From Talaromyces rugulosus (lineage: Eukaryota > Ascomycota > Eurotiomycetes > Eurotiales > Trichocomaceae): DNA of 64,000 bases. The notes below the pieces were generated by a model. That model did no database searches. It saw nothing but the letters and a program-made list of their open reading frames with translations, and had not been told where the DNA came from. Positions 49,332-64,000 of this stretch are shown here, piece by piece; position 1 is the first letter of the stretch; each line of letters begins with the position of its first letter. The stretch lies in contig NC_049561.1 in the NCBI RefSeq assembly GCF_013368755.1, positions 992,001 through 1,056,000 on the forward strand. The letters run 5' to 3'. A program made the translations under genes and the position numbers.

Positions 49332-49657
49332 CATCTAGAGTTTAATTTAGTTACTATATTTATCGGCTCTTTATGTCTTTGTAATTTCATTCACCGGGGT
49401 CAATTGGTGTATTGTCTTAACCTGAGTAGTAAAATGGCCGGACCGGTCAACATCTGTGGAGAAACTAGCCTTCATTCCCCTCATTTCTACACAGCGCTAT
49501 CTATTCAGCTTTATTATAGAGATTGCTAATTAAATACTACTCATTCGAGTTCGCAATCTGTTATTTCAAGCCATAAATTGTTTGTTCTGCATCTTCACCA
49601 TTCTTTTTCATAATATCGTATACTCTCGTCGTACAAAACTAAAAATCTTTTGTCAAG
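49332..49657. promoter_or_regulatory. Promoter region with CGG-N-CCG element
   Basis: Contains TGGCCGGACCGGTCAA at 49435-49450, matching 15 of 16 positions of the site at 47290-47305. The rest is AT-rich leader of the dehalogenase-like gene. Confidence 0.5.
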
Positions 49658-50377
49658 ATGCCCAAACACGTCGTCTTCGACGTCGTCGGCACCTGCGTCT
49701 CCTTCGACGCCTACTTCGCGCGCATTGAGAATGTCATCGGCACCAAATTACACCAACACGCCATAACCGCTCGTCACTTTGGGTATACATGGATGGAAGC
49801 CGCCGAGCTCGAATTCACATTCCTCTCCATCTCCGAGCGCTACAAACCGTACAAGGAGGTGATGAAAGCTGTGTTTTATCGCACTCTCTGGATGGCCGGC
49901 ATTGATGACCCACGCAGTTTCGCAACAGATAGCGAGCGGGATCAATGTATCGCGGGATATTCCGAATTGAAGCTTCGGGATGGTGCAAAGGAATGTCTTG
50001 AGAAATTACGGGCGGCTGGATTTACAGTGTGGTGTTTCACAACGGGGGATATAGCCCGCGTAAGAGGGTATTTTGAGAAAGCAGGGCTGGATATGCCACT
50101 GGCGAATTTTGTCAGTTGTGACGACCAAAAAATTGCAAAGCCCGCGTTGGCGGCGTATAGATCTGTCTTGAACAAGTTTTCGGCGGATGATGAGAAGTGG
50201 TTCGCGGCGGCACATATGTGGGATGTGTCGGCGGCGAAAAGTGTTGGTTTCAAGGGAGCTTATTGTACGGTTTATGAAAAGGAGCCATGCTTGGAGATTT
50301 TTGATACAGAGATAGATGTTATGGCTGATGGTCTGGTGACGATGGCGGAAGGAATCTGTCAGGCATCTATAGCATAA
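49658..50377 (+). CDS. Haloacid dehalogenase-like hydrolase, type II (239 aa)
   Basis: Intronless frame with ATG in AAGATGCCC. HAD motifs: V-F-D-V-V-G-T with the nucleophilic Asp at residue 8, C-F-T-T-G-D as motif II, K-I-A-K-P-A-L-A-A-Y with the motif III lysine, and M-W-D-V-S-A-A-K-S-V-G-F as motif IV. Order and length match 2-haloacid dehalogenases, which displace halide from 2-halo acids to make 2-hydroxy acids, but close relatives have other substrates. Placed beside amino-acid and 2-oxo-acid enzymes and sharing a promoter motif with the permease/oxidase pair. The true substrate is unknown. Confidence 0.85.
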   Translation: MPKHVVFDVVGTCVSFDAYFARIENVIGTKLHQHAITARHFGYTWMEAAELEFTFLSISERYKPYKEVMKAVFYRTLWMAGIDDPRSFATDSERDQCIAGYSELKLRDGAKECLEKLRAAGFTVWCFTTGDIARVRGYFEKAGLDMPLANFVSCDDQKIAKPALAAYRSVLNKFSADDEKWFAAAHMWDVSAAKSVGFKGAYCTVYEKEPCLEIFDTEIDVMADGLVTMAEGICQASIA

Positions 50378-50710: not shown

Positions 50711-53215
50711 TCATTCCGTCATATCAAAATCGAGATCATTCTCGAGCAAATCGGCGTAAGTCCGAAGAGAGTCACAAAACACATGCATCATTTCAAAAAC
50801 GTGGGCCCCCTTTAGTATCTGCGACAATAATCGCACCAGCGTCGCACCCATCCGCCGTAATTGCTCGGGTCCAAATTCACCCACCCGGTCACCTGGCGGT
50901 CCCAGATCTGCTTCCCGCAGTACGCTGGTAATAATTCTTAGAAGGCGCCGTGTATCTCGATGAATATCTGACGGGTCCGACGCGAGCGTCTCGAGCCATT
51001 TGCATAAGAACACGGCGCATTCGAGGTTACAGAGGGAATGGATCGTGCTCCATGTCAAAGTCTGTGTCCTCGCAACGTATTCCACGCCGAGCCGAACGGG
51101 AATGGATAGAGCGTGGATGGATTGGAGGACGGCGTGGTAGATCTGAGGGGTTTGTGCGGGCCTTGGGGCGTTGCAGAAGGCTGATGCGATGGCTTCTGGA
51201 TTCCCCGTTCCTAAGCTGCGGTGTGGGCCAAGATTGAAGTGTAGTCTGATGCATGCAATTCGGAATATCGCTGTCGCGTTGAAACCGAGGGGTCCTTTCG
51301 GAGATGAAGGGGTGATGGACGACGGGTCGGAGCTTGTCTCCCAGCTTTTTTGCCATCGTCGGAGCGCTGTGTGGAATCTTGTGAAGAACTCAACGGGTAG
51401 TGAGGTAGGTCGGTCCTCGGATGTTACTGGGATGCAGAATGATGCCTCCCATGCTAGATATATGTGTTGGAAGAGGCCGTGCATTAGGACCAGGTTTCCA
51501 AAGGAAGATAAGCTGAAGTTATCCCGACGAATTGGCTTATTGTGAAATAACTGGCCGTAGCCATCGCCGAAGGAGACGCTGTGTGGCCACTTCGAGCGGA
51601 GAGATTTCCATTCTGAGGCACTTGAAGCTCTCCAGAGATCCTCGGGCCAAGGAAGATAGAGTGAACTAACTTCACTATTCAGGATCTTTGGAGGCATATT
51701 GTAAAGAATGGTTTGATTATTGCAGATCATGTAGGCAATGAATTTGGTGCGCCGTTGCCCCTCTTGCTGAATCCAGGTGCTCCACGATCCATCGTTGGAA
51801 TGACGATCGTGTAGGAGAAGGCCGCTATCCCGGAGATAGAGCGACATTTGACTAGCAATTCCAAGTGAATCGTGGAGTAGATCATGATTACCCCATGTGC
51901 CCAAAGTGGTAAGGATGATCTGAGCTTGCAGCACCTCAAAATGAGTCTTCTCAGTGCAGTCCATAGTCTCAACGTGGGAACGTGGGGTATAAAGCGAATT
52001 TGACTGGGTGTAGAGGCTGATGTGGCGGTTAATCAATGATCGTGACGCCTTGTAGAACCTCACTGCTCGTTCTCGCTCGAAGCGATATTGTGCCCCCATG
52101 GCCATAATTGCCAAGATTAAGGGCGGAGACAGATTCGCAATCGACACAGTGGATAGGTGCAAAAAAGGCAAATGCCCATGGCTTCCTGTGAAAAACCCTT
52201 CAATGTATCTGCAGAAGACATATTTCGAGGGCACACTAAAGGAGCTCGGGAGGTTTGGACGGATATGATCGATTTTCGTCAAAACATACTGGTAGTCCTC
52301 ATTGCTAATTCGCCACGGATAATTGGGTTCATGTTCACCGGAAGAGTTAGGACGTGAGTAGAAGTGTTGCGAAGTATTTTCCACATCCTGAGAATTGGAT
52401 TTGTCGTTTTGTGGTAAAGATGGGAGTTGGAAATGGGAAAGCGAGGCATCGTCATCAGATGGCGGGCTATCTGGCACGGCCTGATAGGGTGTTTCGTCGA
52501 TAGACTGCCCTGAGTTCCCTGAGGGTGTTGACCCAGATATATCGAGCCCTGGAAGAGAGATGAGATAATTTGGGAGACCAAATCCTAGTCCTTCCAAGGG
52601 AAAGTCGGTATCAACGCTTCCCCATAACACGTTAAGATCTTCTAAATCTTCTTCTAGGAAGCTGTGAGAGGTATCTGGTGGAAGTAACAGGGATCCGGAG
52701 ACGTTGGTGTCCTCGGAGCCCTGTACTTGACCTACGGCATTCGCCGGCAAAATAGAAGGTACGGCAGCAGGTTGGTTATTTAGATCTCCTTGTGGCAGAG
52801 GATGGGTTGCCTCGCGAACTTCCAAGCGGGAATTTGTGGAGCTATCAAGCTCCGATTCAAGATGCGTGGCTTGAGTGGTATTATTCTCGAATAGCAATAA
52901 TCCACTGTAATTTTCAACCTCTCCATGACCAGGGGAATCGCTCTTGAGTTTCAAGTGACGCGACAACAGGTCACTATTGTTACTCAGTTTCTGATCCGAG
53001 AGTCCCTTGGTAAGGCTTGCACTTACCGTCTAGTGAAGTTCTTGCCACAGCGGCAGTGAAATGGCTTCTCGCGTGTATCTGTGCATGTCAGACGTGCCCA
53101 CCCTAGTAGTGGAACAGGGGAACGCACGAGTCCGCTCGTGGCGGAGTAGGTGTTCTCGTCTGGCGAACCGCCTCCGACAAAATCTACATGGTGCGACTTC
53201 AATACGAGGCCGCAT
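50711..53215 (-). CDS. C2H2 zinc-finger plus fungal-specific domain transcription factor (800 aa)
   Basis: Three exons: 53128-53215, 53027-53078 and 50711-52973, 2403 nt in frame. The joined N-terminus has finger 1 C-R-F-C..H-L-L-R-H-E-R-T-H (Cx2Cx12Hx3H), linker T-R-E-K-P-F and finger 2 H-C-R-C-G-K-N-F-T-R-R-D-L-L-S-R-H, where the first pair is C-x1-C rather than C-x2-C. A long Ser/Asp-rich linker precedes the fungal_trans domain (Y-I-E-G-F-F-T-G-S-H-G-H-L-P-F-L-H; A-I-M-A-M-G-A-Q-Y). This C2H2 plus fungal_trans class often regulates catabolic or secondary-metabolite clusters. It is the regulator nearest to the hydantoin-type genes. Confidence 0.87.
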
Positions 53216-54430
53216 GGCTTCAACTGGGAGGAGGGGGTGCTCGTCTGTACTTCGACATCATCTATGTTCGACCGCAGTTGCTTATCAGTCGAAGTGGAGA
53301 CGGTGACGGCATTCGAACTCCTGTGATATTACATAATCAGATAACGGCCTCTGAAAATGCACATTTTTGGGCTAGTTCGAATATTGTTGAATTATAATGG
53401 AGGTTAAGGTGTCGTGCTTGATGGATGATATTTTGATTATGAAGTACGAGTCGTCTGCATGTATATCCACGCATACTCCGTATTCCGTGGAACCTTCCTA
53501 ATTGGGAAATAATATGTTTGTTCAAATGGTTGGAACAGGCCACTTCAATTCCTGTTGTCTGCAAATCGAATTCGTGCAATATAAATTGATAGAATTAGGG
53601 ATTTTATCAATTCCAAGCTCACTATTTGCGACCGCTGTAAACTCGAATGCCTTCCACTGGGAACAGTATCCTTCGCTTTTCTGACCACATTCTGATCAAG
53701 GATGTCTTGTGATTTAGACAGACGTTCACAACAGCAATGTAAATAGCGCTTCATCTCTCCATCTACCAACAGGAATCCGAATCAAATCGACTGTGGACAC
53801 AAGTCGAGTACACGCAACTTGCCTGGTATAGTATATCCGAGTTGCACCAATTCTCTCTTCCCCCCCTTCTTCCTTCCCCGAACGGCGGTCCCATTATTAT
53901 GCTAGCTGATCTAAAAATTAATGCAAGCAACACATCTTGAATTGCAGTTATGTGACTATCTGTGCTAGATGTGGTGGGGTCGAATCCCCTGTGTCTTGCC
54001 ATACTTCCAAAGCTCTAAGTCGACTATATTTACTGGGCGGAACAATTCCAAAGATGAGGGTCTGCAGCCATCCAAGCCCATAAAGAATAATAACTATAAT
54101 CTTAGTGAGCTTCTAGGGTACAAATATCTTGGATTAATTATTACTTCCGATGACTCTAATCAGAAGGGATCAAAACGGTGACTTCCCCATTGAAAGTCAG
54201 AAGCACACGATTAGACTGCTGTTAGGTGTAGAGAAGTACCCCCCTGAGCAAACAAGTTGTGTCAAGAACTACGGTGTTGGGGAATAAGGGAAAGATTCGG
54301 AGTCTAAAGTCACCTAAGGTCCTGTCTGCCATGCCTCTCATTTCCGCCACCTGCGAGGCCCCAGCTTAATAGACAAAATTGGGGAAAGTTCAATTGCCAC
54401 GCGTGAGGTATCAATGTTGATTACTTATGC
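53216..54430. other. Intergenic region with possible retroelement relic
   Basis: Promoter of the C2H2 regulator, then AT-rich DNA. A short + strand frame at 53969-54181 (non-ATG context) contains S-K-S-T-I-F-T-G-R and Y-K-Y-L-G-L-I-I-T, which resemble the reverse-transcriptase thumb of LINE elements; it may be a decayed fragment. No intact gene. Confidence 0.4.
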
Positions 54431-55234
54431 TCATAACCAGTCTTGCAGTCGTTTCACTCTGTCTACTGATGAATCTCTGAAAATACCATTCTTGGAAGTT
54501 TTCAGACCCTCCCTCACAAGACCGACCAAGAATTGTACCCCCAGTCCAACTCCATCCAACACTCTCGCGCCACTTCCTTCGGTCGAAGCCGCGCAGATAG
54601 CTCGCATCTCTGCCATTCCAGCACAGCCCAACAGCACGCAATCAGCACCTTTCTCGTGAACCAGACGGTTGATCTTTTGTGTGATGATGGCTTGCACCTC
54701 GGCTCTTGGCTCAGAGTCAAGCTCGAGAACACCCAGCTTAGCTGCTTCGCATCCTGCAAAATAGTCCGAGAACCCATATTCAGAGACTGTACGACCGTGG
54801 GCTGCTGCAGATCGTTCCGATGTGCATATTATCCCCATATTGCCGCCGAGCATACGTGCTGCATACATGCCTGCCTCCATGATTCCAAGCACCGGCTGGG
54901 TAAATTCTTCCTTGAGCACACCGATCAAAGGATGAGCTCGGAAGCATGCGACAAGAAAAGCATCATAATTGTCTGCGATGGGTTTAATTGCCCTGATACA
55001 AGCCTCGGTGGAGAGCACGGCATCAGTTTGGGATTCGATCGCTGTGGGAGCAGGATAGGGTGCAGTGAATCCATGGACTATCACATCTGGGGGTAAACTG
55101 GGTCCCAAGGCTGTCAAACAGTCCTTGGTCATATATTCACTCGAGTTTGGGTTCACCAGGAGAATGTTGATTGGTCGAGAATTGGATGATCCAGACACCC
55201 GAGGTAAGATGACATCGGCGCGATCGGTGGCCAT
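54431..55234 (-). CDS. Asp/Glu/hydantoin racemase family protein (267 aa)
   Basis: Intronless frame from the ATG at 55234; further upstream the frame begins only with TTG. Family motifs: I-L-L-V-N-P-N-S-S near residue 23, F-T-A-P-Y-P-A-P-T-A-I-E-S near 56, catalytic-type cysteines in V-A-C-F-R-A-H-P-L-I-G (Cys97) and L-L-G-C-A-G-M-A (Cys204). This is the Dcg1/HyuE-like racemase fold with two-cysteine proton transfer. HyuE-type enzymes racemise 5-substituted hydantoins so that both enantiomers can be used. In a cluster with a hydantoinase and a D-carbamoylase this role is strongly favoured. It is divergent from the D-2-hydroxyacid dehydrogenase across a GATA-rich promoter. Confidence 0.88.
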   Translation of the reverse strand: MATDRADVILPRVSGSSNSRPINILLVNPNSSEYMTKDCLTALGPSLPPDVIVHGFTAPYPAPTAIESQTDAVLSTEACIRAIKPIADNYDAFLVACFRAHPLIGVLKEEFTQPVLGIMEAGMYAARMLGGNMGIICTSERSAAAHGRTVSEYGFSDYFAGCEAAKLGVLELDSEPRAEVQAIITQKINRLVHEKGADCVLLGCAGMAEMRAICAASTEGSGARVLDGVGLGVQFLVGLVREGLKTSKNGIFRDSSVDRVKRLQDWL

Positions 55235-55600
55235 TGTCGTTCTCAGAGGGACAGACTCTCCGAATAAGAATCTCAAGTCAAGCGGTCGTTCGTATTACTT
55301 CTACCTCAATTCAATAGAAGTGAGCTAGCTGGGCCCTTATCCGTAACGGGGTTTACCTAGGCTTCGATACTTGTGACTCTTATCGGTGGACCCAACTAGA
55401 ATCGAACCCCGAGGAAGTGTTGGGGTTTTTACCCCGAATTCAGCAGTACAACTCGTATCAACTGATAAGATTATTATTCTTCAAGTCTGACCACCAGTAA
55501 ATGAAATCCACCTTATCACATACATTCCAGACCATAATTGGCTAGTTTTGACGCAAAACAAGGAAAATTTCATTTGAGACCTTGAGGTTTGGATTATACA
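55235..55600. promoter_or_regulatory. Divergent promoter with clustered GATA sites
   Basis: Four GATAAG cores in 366 bp: 55336-55341 (minus strand, preceded by G), 55379-55384 (minus, CGATAAG), 55464-55469 (plus, TGATAAG) and 55512-55517 (minus, TGATAAG). Three fit the HGATAR consensus of AreA-type nitrogen regulators. It also contains CGGGGTAAAAACCCC, a short palindrome near 55417-55434. Nitrogen-catabolite control is inferred. Confidence 0.55.
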
Positions 55601-56638
55601 ATGGGAGAAAAAGCGGACATCCTTTTCATTGAATCACCTGTGCAGGCTGTCGACACCGCACGTCGAGAAGCTCTAGCAAAAAGGTTCAATCTTCTTTACT
55701 ATGATTGCGACTCGACTACCGATTTTATTGAACGACTGAAGCCAGGAGGCCAGTATTCCGGGGTGGTGGCTATCGTCCGCAATGGGTGGCATAAAGTGGG
55801 CAAATTGGCATCGCAACATCTCTTCGCCCCGGAGGTGGTACCACATTTCCCCGGCTGTCTACGCATCATCTGCTGTAGCGGGCATGGATATGATGCATCA
55901 GATGTTAAAGGTATCTCAGCCAGGGGTATATGGTTCTGTAATACACCAGGTGCATGCACCGAGGCTGTGGCCAACACCGCATGGTTTCTGGTTCTCGACA
56001 CATTTCGTTACCTATCTTACTCACACTGGTGTGCGCGATATGACTGGAATGCAAGCAGGGAACTTGGGCTCATTGCTAGTGACCCTTGTGGCCAGTCGTT
56101 AGGAATCGTAGGGCTGGGTGATATTGGGCTTGCAATTGCGCAAAAGTGTGAATCAGCGTGGGGCATGAAGATCCATTACCAAGGTCCACGCCAAAATATC
56201 TGTGCAGAAAGAGTCCTGCAAAATGGGGCGATCTACCATTGTCGAATCAGTGACATGATTCCTGAATTGGATTGCATTGTCCTTGCAGCTCCTTATTCGG
56301 ACGAAACACACCACTTGTTGTCAACAAAGGAATTTGCTCTAGCGAAGAAGACGGGACTGAGAGTAGTCAACATTGCAAGGGGGAAAATGATTGACGAAGA
56401 AGCCTTGATAGAAGCTCTTGATCAAGGGAAAGTTGTTGGAGCAGGTCTCGATGTCCACGAAATAGAACCGGGTGTTAACTCCAAACTAAAAGACAATTGG
56501 AAAGTTACCCTTCTCCCTCACATTGGAGTTTGCTCGTCTACTAGCTGGCAAAACTTTGAAAAGATCAACTTGGACAACCTTGAAGCCTTTCTTACCACAG
56601 GACGACCGATAAACTATGTGATAGATATAGGTTTGTGA
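55601..56638 (+). CDS. D-2-hydroxyacid dehydrogenase / 2-oxo-acid reductase (345 aa)
   Basis: Intronless frame starting at the ATG at 55601; a TTG four codons earlier is ignored. The NAD(P)-binding motif L-G-I-V-G-L-G-D-I-G-L-A is near residue 170. Catalytic triad blocks: N-I-A-R-G-K-M-I-D (Arg), G-L-D-V-H-E-I-E-P (Glu) and L-L-P-H-I-G (His). N-terminal C-S-G-H-G-Y-D is the substrate-loop block. Family members reduce 2-oxo acids to D-2-hydroxy acids or reduce glyoxylate/hydroxypyruvate. After D-amino-acid oxidation the product is a 2-oxo acid, so reduction to the D-hydroxy acid is the likely cluster role. The following intergenic region is 341 bp to RidA on the same strand. Confidence 0.92.
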   Translation: MGEKADILFIESPVQAVDTARREALAKRFNLLYYDCDSTTDFIERLKPGGQYSGVVAIVRNGWHKVGKLASQHLFAPEVVPHFPGCLRIICCSGHGYDASDVKGISARGIWFCNTPGACTEAVANTAWFLVLDTFRYLSYSHWCARYDWNASRELGLIASDPCGQSLGIVGLGDIGLAIAQKCESAWGMKIHYQGPRQNICAERVLQNGAIYHCRISDMIPELDCIVLAAPYSDETHHLLSTKEFALAKKTGLRVVNIARGKMIDEEALIEALDQGKVVGAGLDVHEIEPGVNSKLKDNWKVTLLPHIGVCSSTSWQNFEKINLDNLEAFLTTGRPINYVIDIGL

Positions 56639-56979
56639 ATACCAGTTGACTGTATAGTATTAGAAATAAATTCTATGCTAGAAATTATAATCACAAAATT
56701 GGTTACACATCGTAGAGCGAATGAAGATATATTCAAGGTGCTCAAACGAAATTCAAATTACCCCAAGAAACCTCATGTGAGATGCTCTGATCTCTCAGTT
56801 GCGATTGTACATTATTTTTACTCCAAAACGTCTAAAAGTCAGTTCCCAGTCAGACCAAGGCTTTTTGAGATTGATGTCAATTTTGGAGTTCCTGGATTAG
56901 ACCCAAGAGAGAGAAATTAGTATAACACTGTGTGTTTCGTAGCATTTTAGCAGCTCCTATATCTCAAAAGATAACTGGC
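56639..56979. other. Intergenic region between dehydrogenase and RidA genes
   Basis: AT-rich. It holds the end of one gene and the promoter of the next. The frame of RidA is open upstream to a GTG at 56932 but no upstream ATG is present. Confidence 0.5.
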
Positions 56980-57620
56980 ATGGCACCCTCTTTATCAAAA
57001 GTTTTCACCACCAGAGCTCCGGCTCCTCGAGCTATTATATCCCAAGCAATAATCTGCAATGGGATAATATACTGCTCGGGTGCGGTCGGCACAAATCCCC
57101 AGACAAACAAACTTGTTCCTGGAACAGTCAAAGACAGAACGGCAAGATTCTCTACTTAGATTTGTCGGTTTATTATTTTATGTTTCTGACAATTGATAGA
57201 AACAAGCTCTCAAAAACCTTATTGCCGTCATTGAAGCTGCCGGATCAAGCATTCAGCATGTGATTAAAGTCAATGTCTATCTTACGTCCATGGATGACTT
57301 CGGTCAAATGAACGCCGCCTATGAAGAAATTTTCAATACTGACCCCAGACCGGTATGAGCTGCAGGTTGTTGTATTCTGGTGTTTTCACTGCATATCTAA
57401 CTTTGGGACTGTTATTGAAGGCTCGAACATGTGTGGCTGTGAATGCGTTTCCAGCCAAGACTGACGTAGAGATTGATCTAATTGCTGCTCTGTGAGTTTC
57501 TGTCATCTATGTTATTGCGCAGGGGCATATATATAGACCTTGTCCTTCTTTCAACTGTCACTGATCTGTGGTTCCTCAATCAATAGTGACCACGATGGCC
57601 CGAGAGCCTCTAGACTCTAG
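56980..57620 (+). CDS. RidA/YjgF imine deaminase with PTS1-like SRL end (139 aa)
   Basis: Four exons: 56980-57141, 57200-57352, 57421-57491 and 57587-57620, 420 nt in frame. The first intron uses a GC donor (ACG|GCAAGA..ATAG); no GT site restores the frame. The joined protein has I-Y-C-S-G-A-V-G, D-R-T-K-Q-A-L-K-N-L-I-A-V-I-E-A-A-G-S-S, V-I-K-V-N-V-Y-L-T-S-M-D-D-F, A-R-T-C-V-A-V (the conserved active-site Arg) and D-V-E-I-D-L-I-A-A-L, all diagnostic. RidA hydrolyses reactive 2-imino acids and enamines to 2-oxo acids plus ammonia. The C-terminus A-S-R-L ends in SRL, a canonical peroxisomal signal, placing it with the next gene's oxidase. Confidence 0.9.
57142..57199 (+). other. GC-AG intron in the RidA gene
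   Basis: 58-nt intron with GCAAGA donor and GATAG acceptor. Removal gives uninterrupted family sequence across the joint (R-T-K-Q-A-L-K-N). Retention introduces an in-frame TAG after four codons. Confidence 0.7.
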
Positions 57621-57981
57621 TTCAAGATGAAGAAAAGAGTTCGCGACTACTTGATAATAACATCAATATAATTGCATTATGCAATAATTTGTGTTCTCAT
57701 TTTCATGATACCGTAATACTCGCAATTTAACTGTAGTTGTGTCGTGAGGTGAAACTGGGTTTCTACTCCAACTCTGTGCTTCATTTTTTTTGGGGCGGCG
57801 TGAGTGGAGCCCAGATGAACCGGCAAGATCAACAACACATTCCGATAGATGAAATAGAGAAGTAACCTCGGGGAGTTTGGTGTTAGTCAAAAGCTGCTGC
57901 CTTTTTCAAAGACCCGACTCCATCTCAAAGTGTTATCACCTCAGACGAGCTGCTCCGGGAACACGGAAATTCCACCACGCA
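57621..57981. other. Intergenic region, promoter of the D-amino-acid oxidase gene
   Basis: No ORF with coding character. A CTCCGGGA motif lies near 57953. It contains the transcription start area for the oxidase. Confidence 0.5.
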
Positions 57982-59309
57982 ATGTGTAAGAAACGATACT
58001 CCCTCATCAATGAAAGATATTTTTAATGACGATATTAATGCACTAGCGTCCTATGTTGTCGTCGGTGCTGGCGTCGTAGGGCTTACCACTGCGCTGGAAC
58101 TAAAAGACCGCTACCCGAGTGCAAATGTTACAATCGCAGCCAAGTATCTACCGGGCGATTCATTTTCAGACTACACGTCTAACTGGGGGGGTGCAAATTG
58201 GTTTCCTGCTTCAGCAGACAATGGCCGTCAAGAGAAATGGGACTCTATCACCTACAAGAAGTTTAAACAGCTTTCTAGGGTGAGACCAGACTCCGGTGTC
58301 AAGACCATGAATATTCGCTTCCATTATGACCGACCGATCGATGAGGTTGGGATAATTACACCTGCTACAGGAAAAATCTGGTTTGAGGATCTTGTTGGGG
58401 GGTTAAAGCCAATTGAAAAAGATGAACTTCCAGACGGCGCAGCTTTTGGGTTTGAAATGGCTTCATTTGTTCTTGATGTTCAGCGATATCTTCCCTGGTA
58501 GGACTTGTTTCCCCAACTGGCAATCAAGCTTATGGCTGATGGTTGTAGGTTACAGATGGAAGCTCACTCTCGTGGAGTTGAAATCCATCGAAAAATATTC
58601 ACCGACATTCGTGAGGTCTTCAATCTGTATCCTGAGGCATCGGCGGTGTTCAATTGCACTGGATTAGGGTCCCTTACACTTGGTGGTGTTGAGGACAAAA
58701 TGCTGTATCCTGCGAGAGTATGTCTCCCCTACTAGGTCAGTATGACACGTCTCACAGCCGGCTTAGGGTCAAATTCTGCTCGTTGAAGGTCCAAAAGAAC
58801 CAATTCCCACGATGTACTTCCGATCTCCACATCGAGATGCAGATGCAACCCATATATTTCCACGGGGCAAAGATGGAATGGGCGGTGTGATCTTGGGCGG
58901 GTGTCGGGAAAAGAACAACTGGAATGGAGAAGTCGATTTGGAATTTGCAGAGGTCATTAAACGAAAATGCTGCGCCCTAGTTCCCCAGCTTGGAAAGCCC
59001 GAAAACCTCAAGGTCATCAAGCACGGCGTCGGGCTTCGTCGTACGTATCCTGCATTCTTGACACGTCGCCCGAAATTCCCCATTTCTAATTCTATACAGC
59101 CAGCCGAAAAGGTGGTGCGAGGGTCGAACGTGAGTATATTGATGGCAAGCTTGTCATCCATAATTACGGAGCGGGTGGTACTGGGTTTCAATCATCTTGG
59201 TAAGGATTCCAATTAATATTAAAGAGAATATACGAATATACCCCTGACAAAAAACAGGGGTCTGGCCATGGAAGCCGTCGATTTGATTCCCGAACGAGCT
59301 CGGCTATAA
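57982..59309 (+). CDS. D-amino-acid oxidase, peroxisomal type (349 aa)
   Basis: Six exons: 57982-57985, 58047-58497, 58549-58717, 58767-59040, 59100-59199 and 59258-59309, 1050 nt in frame. The 4-nt first exon gives the compact start M-S-S-Y-V-V-V-G-A-G-V-V-G-L typical of these enzymes; an ATG at 58010 would give an unusual longer N-terminus. Family blocks: N-W-G-G-A-N-W-F-P, Y-L-P-W joined to L-Q-M-E, F-N-C-T-G-L-G-S-L-T-L-G-G-V, Y-P-A-R joined to G-Q-I-L-L-V, the R-x-G-x-R-like R-K-G-G-A-R, and N-Y-G-A-G-G-T-G-F-Q-S-S-W-G. FAD oxidation of D-amino acids yields imino acid plus H2O2. The C-terminal ARL is a PTS1 variant. Confidence 0.92.
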
Positions 59310-59874
59310 ATCTTTTCATGGTTTATGCAAATAAAAGCTGCTTTATTCTAGGGGGGGGTTGGCTAGAAGATCTAATTCTGGTGGTATTATTTAAGATTAT
59401 ATGATAACGAAACAATTTGATCTACATCGCAAAACCTTGTTATACACGAAAAGATTTCATCCATACAGTTGTCCATGTACGTTACCTTACGCCTTGGGAG
59501 TTGAAACATTCCTTCTCTCCTTCTAGTTTCAGAGACCTTCCAAGGCCATGTCTATCATGTCTACGGATCATGTTGTATTAGTTTTTTTTGGGTCTGAGTA
59601 TTCACTTTCCCGCACTAGTAGCGAAATATGATTTCTCGCTTGCCCCGAAAAGCTTTGTGACCAATGCGTAGAATGTCATTGTTGAATTTCATAACAAATA
59701 TAAGTGAGAATATATTACGGAGAGACTATTGCAACCATCAATCGGTCAATCTAGGGTTTTCCCGTGCTAGTAATAGGGCTGCTCTGTATAGCTTTCAAAA
59801 TCCTGATCTTCTAAAGTCTCTTAAGGGCATCAATGATCACTCCGTTATTATATTCATGCTTGAGCATCGCGTAA
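59310..59874. other. Convergent intergenic region
   Basis: 3' ends of the oxidase and hydantoinase genes. It contains a G8 run at 59352-59359. Short ORFs are antisense shadows. No gene. Confidence 0.5.
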
Positions 59875-61505
59875 TCATGCCACAGGCCTGGGCCGCCACA
59901 AATCTCGCTCTCCCTCGATCATCCCGGCGGGCAGTTGACCAAGCTTTCCAACCAGAAGGCGACCATTTTCTCTCTTTAAGAAATTTCCAAATCCCTTCAC
60001 TCCAGTCACACTATCCTTGTCCGCATCCCATACAATCTCACCCCGCAACATCGTAAGGCGAGGCCAATTCCGAACACGCATCCCTTCAAATGGCGTATAA
60101 TCAACCCCGTGGTGGAGTTTCTCCTGTGCAATCGTTTTCTCGCCTTGGTTGTGTGGATGCCAGACAACTAGATCTGCATCAAATCCTGGCATAATGGATC
60201 CCTTCCGCGTTAGCCCATACAGCCTAGCCGGATTGCCCGATGTGAGTTGCACAAAACGAGCCAGGCTCAGACGGGCTCGCTCCTTCGGAAGACATCCTTC
60301 TGTTTCACTGAAAAGAAGAGATAGGCGGGTCTCAATTCCTGGGATTCCTTTCGGAATTTTACTAAATTTGGGGATTCCGTCGATTATTCCAGCTTTTTTC
60401 CCTTGAGGATGGTCGTATTTGGTGGGCGCGTGGTCCGACGAGAATATCGTGAATGTGTCGTTTGAAATTCCGCGCCAGAGAGCTTCGAGGTCTTCTGGGT
60501 TGTGGCGAAGTGGAGGGGAGCACACCCCCTTGGCACCATGGAAGGCATCGTGCTCGTGGTTTGCCAGTTTATCAGACAATAGGAACAGATAATGGGGGCA
60601 TGTCTCTGCATGGATCGGGAGTAATCTCGTCTGCGCTTCCCTGATATGCTTCATGGCTCCATCGGAAGAAACGTGAACTAGTAGCACCGGAGCATCAACC
60701 AATTCTGCAAGTCGAATGGCACGGTATGACGCTTCGTCTTCAGCAATTTTTGGTGCCGAGATCGCGTGGAAGAAAGGGGCCGTGTTCTCATTTCTCTCAA
60801 GGCCCTGGATCAGGAAATTGATCATGTCGCTGTTCTCAGCATGAATCATAGTCGTCAGTCCCAGCGACCGGCATGCAAGCATAGTATCGAGGAGTTGACG
60901 GTCGGACAGTTTGTACAACTCGTAAGTCATGTAAAGTTTGACACTTGTTATGCCTTCTTCTTTGGCAATACGAGGCAATTCCTGCCAAAGGATTGTCTCG
61001 CTGGGATTCGTGAGAATAAAGTGAAACCCGTAATCACAGTAGCTTTGGCCACGAGATTTTTCGTGATACTCTTCGAGGACGGGGAACAAGGATGTCATCT
61101 CCTTCGTTTGCGATGCAAATGCAAGTACGGTCGTAGTACCTCCGGCGACTGCACTGCGCGTGCCAGTCTCCCAGGTGTCTCCAGTCGGTGCATTTCTTTG
61201 CGCCAGATGCACATGTGAATCGACACCGCCAGGTGTGATATATGCGCCTTGCGCATCAATGATCTTGGTCTCGGGGCCTTCAGGCAGGCCAAATCCTATG
61301 AGAGATATTTTCCCGTTGGAGATTCCAATTTCTTGCCCGGCAGGAAGCACGCCGCTTTCCGTGACCTGATCAAAAATATCAGTCCTATGCTGAAACAATC
61401 GACCTCCTTGTGAAATAGCATATCTAAAGACGCTGACATATGGGACGAGGTCATCGAGGGATCACTCACAATGAGACCGTTTCTCACGATAGTATCCAGC
61501 CCCAT
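59875..61505 (-). CDS. Hydantoinase / dihydropyrimidinase-type cyclic amidohydrolase (508 aa)
   Basis: Two exons, 61470-61505 (12 codons, M-G-L-D-T-I-V-R-N-G-L-I) and 59875-61365. Metal ligands of the amidohydrolase fold are visible: D-S-H-V-H-L (His63, His65), S-V-K-L-Y-M-T-Y-E with the carbamylated Lys155, I-H-A-E-N (His187), V-H-V-S-S (His243) and S-S-D-H-A-P-T (Asp323). A bimetallic hydrolytic cyclic amidase that opens hydantoins or dihydropyrimidines to N-carbamoyl amino acids. Allantoinase is a related alternative, but a D-carbamoylase, a hydantoin racemase and a D-amino-acid oxidase next to it favour D-hydantoinase. Length is close to that of bacterial and fungal hydantoinases. Confidence 0.9.
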
Positions 61506-62293
61506 GGTGGCTATGGTATGTTCGGTTCAGTGAAGGTTGCCACTCTAACTAGAGGAGCGATCCATATCCTTTGTATCGTTCTAGGTGAGTCTCAAATTTC
61601 TCATCTCTTCCTCTAACCTGCTTGGCTTATCATGGGGTTCTCGCTATCTGTGGTGCTGGGTGGGGGGGAACTTTGTTCCCAGAGTTTCGACCCCAACAAC
61701 CCCAATTTGAAGCCTATCGATGAAATACATCATACCATTCTGGTCCCTGACAGGATTTCGTCCAGTATGCTTTACTATAGTCTCATTTACAAGCAGACAT
61801 TCCCTACTTTAGGTTTGGCTTCTAATAGCGGTGGAGAGTACCTACTCCATACACGCTCTGCCTTTCTGAGGGCAGGAGTGACAACACGCTTCTTGGGCCG
61901 GTTGACGTCAGGTTTATTCTGCCGAACTTTCTGTTCTGTAGATGCAGGCATGATAGCTATTATGGCCTTGATCTCACGCTGGCTTACGCCATCGGCGTCT
62001 TGACGGGATTCGTGGAAGATGAAGAAGCGGCGAGACAAGCAAAGCCCGTCTAAAGTCCAGCCCAATAGAGGGCCTTCATTTGTTGTCCTATAAGATTTTG
62101 ACTAGAGAGAGGAACAAACAGCGTACAGTATGTATATAGGTCTCGTTGCACGAAAACTATTCATCTAGGGGGTTTACGAATATACAAGTCGACTGATTCA
62201 ATGTGTGGAATATATCCTGCAAATGAAATATTTAAAACACGCTCAAACTCAAATGTACATGTTAAGGGTCTACCTAATTTTATCGTCGCCAGA
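61506..62293. other. Intergenic region, promoter of the hydantoinase gene
   Basis: Contains the hydantoinase promoter and the 3' flank of the carbamoylase. A + strand frame at 61632-62003 has an ATG but no domain character, and I do not call it. 62090-62280 is AT-rich. Confidence 0.5.
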
Positions 62294-63376
62294 TCATAGC
62301 AAGTCTGGCTCAATAACCCCAGTACGATCCAGAATAGGATGGTAGTGTTCAGGTCGACGATGCTTCTCAAACGCGAAGACAGTGCTCTTAGGTCGGTGGC
62401 AGTCTGCTAAGTCAATTGTTGCCAGAACCAACTCGTCCTCCTTCGTTTGAGCTTCCTTGATAATGTGCCCAAGCGGATGCACAATGATAGTTCCACCCAC
62501 CAACGGGTTCCCATCTTCAGCGCCCGTCTTTGCAACATTGATGCTAAAACAGGCGTTCATATAACTGTTTCCCTGGCATGAAAGTTTATGATGCAACATT
62601 ACCATCTCCTCCGCCGCTTCGGGAGTTAGATCCAGTTGGTGGCCAGCGGCAGTGGTCGGGAATGCAGTGGTATTATATCCACAACATAAAATCTCCATTC
62701 CTTGGAGGCCGTACACGCGCCAGGCCTCGGCCCAACGTCGATCATTGCAGATGAGCATTCCAATGATCGGATCGCCTTTACCAGTTGATTGTGTAACGTT
62801 ATCCAGGTCGGTCGACTTCTTTAGTGCGCCCTCAACAAGCCCGGGGGCTCTGAATGCCGGGAATCCAAGATCTCCCGGGCGGAAATAGCGCTTCTCTAAC
62901 TGCTGAACAGCGCCAGGCTCGGTACGAGGCTCCACGGTGCCTGGAAGATGGACTTTGCGGTATTTCCCGACAATTTTATTTGCATCCGCGGAGTAGTAAA
63001 CACTGGAGTTGTAGTCGATATGGGTTCCGTCTTTTTGAATGCTGCGTTCCGCATAGCCCACATACACATCAATACCCAGTGCACTTGCACGGTCAAAAAG
63101 AGGCTTGACGTTTGGAGATTGCTCAATTCCACCTTTACTTGGATCTTCTACGTCAAAATATTGATCCAAGTCTATTCCCTCGAAAAGATATCGTGGGAAG
63201 AACGTGGTGAAAGCAAGCTCTGGGAAGACTGCAAGTTTTGCTCCTTGCTGCGCGGCCTGTTCCAAAAGCGACAGCATGCGCTTCAACACATCTCGCCGAG
63301 AATCTGCGAGATGAACGGGACCAAGCTGACAGGCAGCGACTGTCACCAACCTGGACGCCGAAGTCGTGGAACTCAT
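62294..63376 (-). CDS. N-carbamoyl-D-amino-acid hydrolase (D-carbamoylase, 360 aa)
   Basis: Intronless frame from the ATG at 63376; upstream in-frame codons start with TTG only. Nitrilase-superfamily (CN hydrolase) catalytic residues: F-P-E-L-A-F-T-T-F-F-P-R (Glu53), G-K-Y-R-K-V-H-L-P-G (Lys141) and M-L-I-C-N-D-R-R-W (Cys210). The blocks T-T-F-F-P-R, L-E-K-R-Y-F-R-P-G-D-L-G-F-P, N-D-R-R-W-A-E-A-W-R-V and G-Y-N-T are the specific signature of bacterial N-carbamoyl-D-amino-acid amidohydrolases rather than of eukaryotic beta-ureidopropionases. An insertion of about 20 residues lies around 177-203. It releases the D-amino acid plus CO2 and ammonia. Divergent from the permease gene. Confidence 0.92.
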   Translation of the reverse strand: MSSTTSASRLVTVAACQLGPVHLADSRRDVLKRMLSLLEQAAQQGAKLAVFPELAFTTFFPRYLFEGIDLDQYFDVEDPSKGGIEQSPNVKPLFDRASALGIDVYVGYAERSIQKDGTHIDYNSSVYYSADANKIVGKYRKVHLPGTVEPRTEPGAVQQLEKRYFRPGDLGFPAFRAPGLVEGALKKSTDLDNVTQSTGKGDPIIGMLICNDRRWAEAWRVYGLQGMEILCCGYNTTAFPTTAAGHQLDLTPEAAEEMVMLHHKLSCQGNSYMNACFSINVAKTGAEDGNPLVGGTIIVHPLGHIIKEAQTKEDELVLATIDLADCHRPKSTVFAFEKHRRPEHYHPILDRTGVIEPDLL

Positions 63377-63832
63377 GGTGATTGTCGTAGTTGCACGTGG
63401 GCTTGGATGAAGATTGTTTTCTGAATATGCCAACGATACGCTAGGCAGAATGGTAAATTATAAATGGACTATTAACTATCAAACTCAGCAAATCTACGAG
63501 ATACAAATTCGGGGTCGAAACACACCCCACATATCAGTTATCAGTGAATTCACCCCGAGGACTTTCCACCCAACGGAGTCGGTTACGCTTATCTTTCCGA
63601 CTCCAATCTCAAAACTATCTATCGTCCCGTCCACTCTTTGGCCAATTTTCGTAAACTCTACTGGTACGCTGGTTATCAATAGGTTTCGTAAGAATAGCCC
63701 CGCAAGGGGTTACACGTTTTGCTTTTGAAGAAGTTAAAGCTCGTGGTCCCAGAAAGCTTGCACAAAGAAACAAAGTGTAGACTACATACATCCTCTTCGA
63801 TTTACTATATTTGGTCATATCATAGAACAAAC
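63377..63832. promoter_or_regulatory. Divergent promoter with GATA sites
   Basis: GATA cores at 63538-63542 (minus strand, TGATAA), 63588-63593 (minus, AGATAAG) and 63672-63677 (minus, TTGATAAC) within a 456-bp intergenic region between carbamoylase and permease. Same site type as in the racemase/dehydrogenase promoter. AreA-type control is inferred. Confidence 0.5.
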
Positions 63833-64000
63833 ATGGGACTTCGAAATCGACTACAAGTAAATCAAGGGGACTCCTCGCTAGCGCACTCCAATAAAGACCT
63901 CGAGCCTATACCCCGGGACTCCCCAAAACGAACATGGACATGGCCGTCTCTTCTCGGCTTCTGGATCGCCGAGGCATTCAGTATTAGCATGTACCAAGGT
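63833..64000 (+). CDS. NCS1-family permease, N-terminal fragment (cut by window end)
   Basis: Fifty-six codons from ATG at 63833 to the window end, still open. The motif N-K-D-L-E-P-I-P followed by R-T-W-T-W and F-W-I-A-E-A-F-S-I-S-M-Y-Q is the start of the first membrane helix of NCS1 nucleobase/allantoin/hydantoin transporters. The bacterial hydantoin permease Mhp1 belongs to this family. Next to a D-carbamoylase and a hydantoinase, uptake of hydantoins is the likely function; uracil or allantoin transport is the alternative. The remainder of the gene lies outside. Confidence 0.85.
   Translation, partial: MGLRNRLQVNQGDSSLAHSNKDLEPIPRDSPKRTWTWPSLLGFWIAEAFSISMYQG

Follow-up and report, generated by a model that had tools for sequence, protein, structure and literature searches.

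At the right-hand end of a 64,000-nucleotide stretch of the Talaromyces rugulosus genome, seven adjacent genes encode enzymes and a transporter of the families expected for hydantoin breakdown. We consider it fairly probable that they form a conserved fungal catabolic cluster in which a 5-substituted hydantoin would be converted to a D-amino acid, then to a 2-oxo acid and finally to a D-2-hydroxy acid, an acidic hydantoin being the likeliest substrate. The stretch, referred to as the window, corresponds to C1:992001-1056000 (contig NC_049561.1) of a six-contig, 35.76-Mb genome, and positions below are those of the window. The genes start at 54431, extend 1781 bases beyond the window and encode, in order, an Asp/Glu/hydantoin racemase family protein (minus strand), a 2-hydroxyacid dehydrogenase (plus), the imine deaminase RidA (plus), a D-amino-acid oxidase (DAAO)-type enzyme (plus), a hydantoinase (minus), an N-carbamoyl-D-amino-acid hydrolase (minus; carbamoylase below) and an NCS1 permease (plus). 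All seven reading frames are intact after intron placement, and the introns are GT-AG throughout, except for the first RidA intron, which is GC-AG. Pfam scores of all seven proteins exceed the Pfam cut-off (Asp_Glu_race 165 bits; 2-Hacid_dh_C 127 and 2-Hacid_dh 42; Amidohydro_1 85; CN_hydrolase 147; and, on spliced models, Ribonuc_L-PSP 124, DAO 122 and Transp_cyt_pur 327 bits). Thus, the seven families named in an initial annotation of the window are all present as contiguous, intact genes, with Pfam backing for each.

In the proposed pathway, the permease would import a 5-substituted hydantoin, the racemase would interconvert its enantiomers, and the hydantoinase would open the ring to give an N-carbamoyl-D-amino acid. 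The carbamoylase would then release the D-amino acid together with CO2 and ammonia. This D-amino acid would be converted to an imino acid by the oxidase in the peroxisome, RidA would hydrolyse the imino acid to a 2-oxo acid and ammonia, and the dehydrogenase would reduce the 2-oxo acid to a D-2-hydroxy acid for disposal or storage. In an acidic version, hydantoin-5-acetate or hydantoin-5-propionate would yield D-Asp or D-Glu, from these oxaloacetate or 2-oxoglutarate, and finally D-malate or D-2-hydroxyglutarate, respectively. Hydantoin-5-propionate arises in histidine or ergothioneine breakdown. The joint pathway suggested in the initial annotation is backed by the families, the intact set and the linkage of some of the genes in relatives; from these we infer the remainder, namely the reactions (including action on hydantoins and their chirality), the order of steps, co-regulation, the acidity of the substrate, the peroxisomal location and nitrogen scavenging as the purpose. 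The most specific form of the proposal would make this the first eukaryotic hydantoin-catabolic cluster, present across Pezizomycotina and leading from acidic hydantoins via D-Glu or D-Asp and a peroxisomal oxidase resembling D-aspartate oxidase (DDO), RidA and a reductase to D-2-hydroxyglutarate or D-malate; we put it forward tentatively, as possible rather than probable.

Linkage of cluster genes in other fungi

Protein searches were performed with three of the proteins, carbamoylase, hydantoinase and oxidase, and the best 120 homologues of each were listed (360 in all). A shared contig was inferred from equal contig size instead of true coordinates; no size recurs within any of the three lists. 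Among the listed homologues, at least two of the three proteins occur together on 15 contigs besides the window's own. Seven of these contigs show locus tags for two or three of the genes, and all of them lie within four tags: Penicillium hispanicum (163/167), P. taxi (6999/7000), P. macrosclerotiorum (10327/10329), P. chermesinum (9705/9707), Cladophialophora immunda (1224/1226/1227), Pestalotiopsis fici (3890/3892) and Phialemonium thermophilum (9903/9902). The other eight are known by the shared contig alone and comprise Thozetella (all three genes), Clonostachys rosea, Phialocephala, Periconia digitata, Pleurostoma, Geosmithia, Curvularia clavata and one further contig. The linked fungi presumably span several classes of Pezizomycotina.

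Three joined gene models extend the linkage to RidA and the dehydrogenase. In P0243 of P. hispanicum, the annotation fuses RidA with the oxidase, the RidA part being 75% identical to the window RidA. P0257 of Curvularia clavata and P0266 of a second Curvularia species are annotated as fusions of dehydrogenase and oxidase, and their dehydrogenase parts share 66% and 59% identity, respectively, with that of the window. Gene order and strand in all three match the window. These models are probably neighbouring genes that were mis-joined, i.e., annotation errors that are useful as evidence of adjacency. Hence the synteny that the initial annotation had asked for is found for carbamoylase, hydantoinase and oxidase, with RidA and dehydrogenase beside the oxidase.

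The linkage evidence covers these five of the seven genes, and this limit is what speaks for the seven being chance neighbours without joint function. We regard this as scarcely credible: 15 further contigs share two or three of the genes, and chance is already disfavoured for carbamoylase, hydantoinase and oxidase. Several cases nevertheless weigh against a conserved cluster. The listed Pleurostoma hydantoinase and Clonostachys rosea oxidase lie on other contigs, and listed pairs are split over contigs in Mollisia, Coleophoma, Exophiala mesophila, Ilyonectria destructans and Claussenomyces; some of these proteins are distant paralogues. Pairs are also on differing contigs in Parastagonospora, Fusarium proliferatum and Aureobasidium pullulans, where the entries possibly come from different strains.

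The carbamoylase shares 87% identity with its P. hispanicum counterpart but only 63% with that of Talaromyces atroroseus, and the oxidase is 92% identical to one named Aspergillus sergii. This could mean that the cluster moved between genera, or could be a matter of paralogy.

A D-aspartate-oxidase-like oxidase with RidA and a dehydrogenase

The oxidase gene (57982..59309, plus strand; PF01266, 121.5 bits) consists of six exons (57982-57985, 58047-58497, 58549-58717, 58767-59040, 59100-59199 and 59258-59309) and encodes 349 amino acids. A broken gene, as an in-frame TAG at 58499-58501 could suggest, was rejected: the TAG lies inside a 51-nt GT-AG intron whose splicing restores the family sequence, and oxidase homologues carry the same sequence across the junction.

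Human DDO binds the side-chain carboxylate through Arg216, with Arg237 attracting and holding it, and the alpha-carboxylate through Arg278 and Tyr223 (PMC8260693, in excerpt). Arg227, Arg255 and Arg299 of the cluster oxidase pair with human Arg216, Arg237 and Arg278 in HMMER alignments. The pairing of Arg255 with Arg237 is supported by both HMMER and MAFFT, whereas that of Arg227 with Arg216 appears in both HMMER alignments and MAFFT with all homologues aligns the loop otherwise; Arg227 is likely the equivalent of Arg216. Among the 120 listed homologues, Arg occupies the Arg227 column in 113 and the Arg255 column in 117, and all ten cluster-linked oxidases have Arg at both, five of them with His and five with Tyr at the Tyr223 position. 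The cluster oxidase itself carries His237 at this position, as do 30 of the 120 listed homologues with their His. Because Arg299 is present but His237 replaces Tyr223, we call the oxidase DDO-like and do not file it as a DDO. The earlier label of D-amino-acid oxidase thus holds at the level of the DAO family and is refined by the arginines, so that the flux may be acidic (D-Asp/D-Glu).

Compared with the solved D-aspartate oxidases (human DDO/DASPO, 6rkf; Cryptococcus humicola, 9vpf), the cluster oxidase is alike in the three human Arg positions (by HMMER), in the fold of a homologue and in a C-terminus resembling a peroxisomal targeting signal type 1 (PTS1), and unlike in its His for Tyr223; the C. 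humicola enzyme has Met where the cluster oxidase has Arg255 and the human enzyme Arg237. The fold was taken from a structure model of P0242, the homologue in Talaromyces pinophilus, and not from the window oxidase itself (mean predicted local distance difference test score, pLDDT, 90.7). This model matches DAAO and DDO chains about equally, so the fold does not decide between the two. The C-terminus of the oxidase reads ARL, which we take to be a PTS1-like peroxisomal end; an end of this type is found in 21 of 30 His-type and 52 of 89 Tyr-type listed homologues.

Since the DDO-like arginines, together with Lys351 of the hydantoinase (see below), favour an acidic hydantoin, the sequences point to this type of substrate. 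The same pathway could alternatively be general or hydrophobic, with broad acceptance of hydantoins and N-carbamoyl-D-amino acids, a broad DAAO, and a dehydrogenase that acts on aromatic or branched 2-oxo acids. In favour of such breadth, the nearest solved relative of the dehydrogenase is a D-mandelate dehydrogenase, the broad Rasamsonia DAAO, which accepts D-Glu too (PMC6697736, in excerpt), is the best sequence match of the oxidase and the best fold match of P0242, and the hydantoin transporter Mhp1 prefers aromatic hydantoins (PMC4195764, in excerpt). Against it, neither of the two positions in question, both Arg in the cluster oxidase, is Arg in ReDAAO, RgDAAO or pig DAAO as aligned by MAFFT. 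We consider a general or hydrophobic pathway rather unlikely, if still worth weighing beside the acidic one.

The two genes whose enzymes would act after the oxidase lie upstream of it on the same strand. RidA (56980..57495, plus strand; exons 56980-57141, 57200-57352 and 57421-57495; 129 amino acids; PF01042) scores 123.3 bits against the TIGR00004 cut-off of 106.25 and has Arg107 within ARTCVAV, presumably the conserved functional Arg of the Rid family. Its GC-AG intron, 57142-57199, was placed from the family sequence alone. The D-2-hydroxyacid dehydrogenase (55601..56638, plus strand; single exon, 345 amino acids) contains both family domains (PF02826 and PF00389) and the motifs NIARG, DVHEIEP and PHIG, which we take to be the catalytic Arg/Glu/His set. 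Its closest solved chain, the D-mandelate dehydrogenase 2w2k, is distant.

Permease, racemase, hydantoinase and carbamoylase

The NCS1 permease (63833..64000 in the window, plus strand; exon 1, 63833-63998) is partial solely through the window edge; the complete gene has seven exons up to C1:1057781, 1781 bases further, and encodes 524 amino acids (PF02133, 327 bits). Two solved sequences were matched, both of them Mhp1. In the alignment, the permease keeps equivalents of Mhp1 Trp117, Gln121 and Asn318, which are contacts to the hydantoin ring (PMC4195764, in excerpt), and does not keep Trp220. The three kept residues are common to NCS1 transporters of other substrates and are thus compatible with hydantoin transport without being proof of it.

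The racemase gene (54431..55234, minus strand; PF01177, 165 bits) is a single exon of 267 amino acids. The three solved sequences that it matches, 3qvj, 5lfd and 3qvk, are hydantoin/allantoin racemases, and both of its Cys motifs (VACF and LGCAGM) align with 3qvj. Both cysteines expected of such racemases are accordingly present, a feature that hydantoin and allantoin racemases would share. Four residues of KpAllR, Asn12, Met17, Thr118 and Thr119, are reported for the hydantoin/allantoin racemase group (PMC12661438, in excerpt). Three of them (Asn12, Met17 and Thr119) are kept and Thr118 reads Cys, in our own numbering. For the Asp/Glu/hydantoin racemase family, one study counted fungal acceptors in 15 of 17 inferred transfers (PMC5169069, in the part available).

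According to PMC12661438, the sole well-characterised fungal member of this racemase family is OpaE of oxepinamide biosynthesis, which would suit a module for tailoring or detoxification in secondary metabolism, with the racemase acting OpaE-like on a peptide product. We regard such a module as very improbable, as the racemase keeps Asn12, Met17 and Thr119 of the hydantoin/allantoin group, and by eye the open reading frames (ORFs) between window position 49.6k and the window end, and those of the adjoining 20 kb on the right, include no synthase-type gene.

The hydantoinase gene (59875..61505, minus strand; exons 61470-61505 and 59875-61365) encodes 508 amino acids, and the protein is 100% identical to P0121, TRUGW13939_00348 of T. 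rugulosus. It scores 407.9 bits against the cut-off of 393.25 of NCBIfam TIGR02033, a model that includes dihydropyrimidinases, while the top NCBIfam model is a dihydropyrimidinase subfamily whose cut-off the score does not reach. The protein keeps all six metal ligands, which, by position, are found in 116 to 119 of 119 listed hits. Like the dihydropyrimidinases and D-hydantoinases 2fty, 1k1d and 1nfg, it has the metal ligands and equivalents of Tyr155 and Ser289 and passes TIGR02033. Unlike them, it has Lys351 at the Asn337 position, where Lys is found in the nine closest of the 119 listed hits and Asn in the other 110; Lys also occurs in three of nine cluster-linked hydantoinases. In dihydropyrimidinase, Asn337 contacts ligands via its main chain (PMC8860565, in excerpt), and because of this Lys351 is a hint only. 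A structure model of the hydantoinase was discarded as too poor for use (mean pLDDT 62.9). ErtD, a hydantoin-5-propionate amidohydrolase of ergothioneine use, is a conceptual parallel in its acidic hydantoin substrate, but the cluster hydantoinase lies far below the ErtD cut-offs (203.7 versus 650 and 156.8 versus 600).

The carbamoylase (62294..63376, minus strand; single exon, 360 amino acids; PF00795, 147 bits) has N-carbamoyl-D-amino-acid hydrolases as all of its 11 best solved matches. It carries Glu53, Lys141 and Cys210, which we take to be the catalytic Glu-Lys-Cys.

These two enzymes bear on reductive pyrimidine catabolism as another explanation, in which the hydantoinase would be a dihydropyrimidinase and the nitrilase-fold enzyme beta-ureidopropionase-like. 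The best solved match of the hydantoinase is indeed the dihydropyrimidinase 2fty, and the dihydropyrimidinase subfamily is its best-scoring NCBIfam model, albeit under cut-off. The nitrilase-fold enzyme, however, is D-carbamoylase-like in 11 of 11 best solved matches, and a paralogue on contig C6 that retains Asn337 would be the better dihydropyrimidinase candidate. Moreover, a D-amino-acid oxidase, RidA and a 2-hydroxyacid dehydrogenase have no known role in the reductive pyrimidine pathway, which counts against it. Overall, a pyrimidine pathway appears improbable. The C6 paralogue is 52% identical over the matched part, the oxidase has eight other matching loci in the genome, and no second match to the carbamoylase was found in this genome. 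The hydantoinase and oxidase of the cluster are thus distinct from the other copies.

Comparison with bacterial hyu clusters

The chemistry of hydantoinases and carbamoylases, which matters to industry, is known chiefly from bacteria, and an NCS1 permease occurs in hyu clusters (Mhp1). We used the seven window proteins as queries (E up to 1e-5) on the best 80 loci of at least 569 confirmed bacterial carbamoylase relatives, seven of the 80 loci being shorter than 6 kb. A racemase was found in 36, a hydantoinase in 31 and RidA in two of these D-carbamoylase loci. Homologues of the oxidase, the dehydrogenase and the permease were found in none of the 80 at E up to 1e-5, a search with fungal queries that divergent D-amino-acid dehydrogenases would escape. 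According to the initial annotation, bacterial hyu operons carry the first four functions; racemase or hydantoinase is present in part of the 80 loci, and the fungal permease query matched none. Its further claim, that the fungal set is extended beyond the bacterial type by an oxidase, an imine deaminase and a reductase, is supported in that no homologue of oxidase or reductase was found in the best 80 loci.

Thus, the fungal cluster resembles bacterial hyu clusters in its adjoining racemase, hydantoinase and D-carbamoylase genes. It differs in being eukaryotic, with introns, and in adding an oxidase, RidA and a D-2-hydroxyacid dehydrogenase (0, 2 and 0 of 80 loci). In addition, its carbamoylase belongs to a separate clan. 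When 59 fungal-type and 77 bacterial carbamoylases were placed in one tree, the two groups separated fully, with support of 1.0 and 0.99. The fungal-type set comprised the window protein and 58 of the 120 hits (every second hit, two of 60 being dropped for length), some metagenome proteins being taken as fungal-type, and the bacterial set 77 of the 80 loci (three dropped for strand or internal stops). The tree was midpoint-rooted without outgroup and gives two clans, not a direction of transfer. Taken together, the comparison supports a eukaryotic, oxidatively extended pathway of the hyu type.

The claim that such a cluster had not been described is not contradicted by a full-text literature search, which covered few subscription papers: judged by titles and abstract starts, it contained no account of a fungal cluster of this kind. 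Further cited sources, available in excerpt, are PMC5640708 and PMC10788122. A conserved fungal version would be a source of new eukaryotic hydantoinase and carbamoylase enzymes, in a pathway extended by oxidation and reduction steps that have no homologue in the best 80 bacterial loci. It would also give a natural role to fungal D-aspartate-oxidase-like proteins and to some fungal Asp/Glu/hydantoin racemases, and would suggest that moulds scavenge nitrogen from hydantoins.

Promoter motifs

The five cluster promoters contain 18 copies of HGATAR, presumably the AreA-type site of nitrogen control, compared with 9.0 in dinucleotide shuffles; the observed number was reached by five of 1000 shuffles. 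A neighbouring intergenic stretch of 831 bases outside the cluster (53600-54430) contains two. The excess is consistent with nitrogen control of the cluster. Three copies lie in the divergent promoter of racemase and dehydrogenase (55235..55600), five between hydantoinase and carbamoylase (61506..62293) and six in the divergent promoter of carbamoylase and permease (63377..63832). A second motif, CCCCGAGG, is present as a single copy in three promoters, two of these copies lying at 55407-55414 and 63553-63560; its three copies compare with 0.04 in shuffles and were reached by 0 of 1000, but the motif was picked post hoc, so these numbers are no test.

The hydantoinase-carbamoylase intergenic region also contains a 54-amino-acid minus-strand ORF (61787-61951) with a bZIP-like basic start by eye, and tag numbers allow one gene at this place in P. 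macrosclerotiorum, P. chermesinum and C. immunda. As a bZIP regulator it was rejected: it matches no Pfam family at E up to 5, and a longer frame of 104 amino acids gave only a sub-threshold cohesin match.

Neighbouring genes and a second hydantoinase locus

To the left, the cluster adjoins a regulator-type gene with a fungal transcription-factor domain (50711..53029, minus strand; PF04082, 45 bits). An upstream exon ORF of this gene (53023-53328) appears C2H2-like by eye and matches no Pfam family. Further left, a HAD-family gene (PF00702) lies at 49643-50377 on the plus strand. The genes that follow beyond the permease, recognized by eye as an alpha/beta hydrolase, a WD-repeat gene and a helicase, were judged unrelated, and we therefore take the cluster to end at the permease. 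A short coding-like fragment right of the permease (L009:1990-2115), without a continuing frame by eye, is possibly a gene remnant.

A second hydantoinase-type neighbourhood, C6:310001-318300, contains the hydantoinase paralogue, an NCS1 permease and, by eye, a Zn2Cys6-type regulator. Like the cluster it combines a hydantoinase with an NCS1 permease; unlike the cluster it keeps Asn337, and at E up to 0.01 the surrounding 30 kb gave no match to the carbamoylase, oxidase, RidA, racemase or dehydrogenase of the cluster. The locus also encodes a PF01177-like protein (28.9 bits, cut-off 31), which by eye resembles maleate isomerase/arylmalonate decarboxylase.

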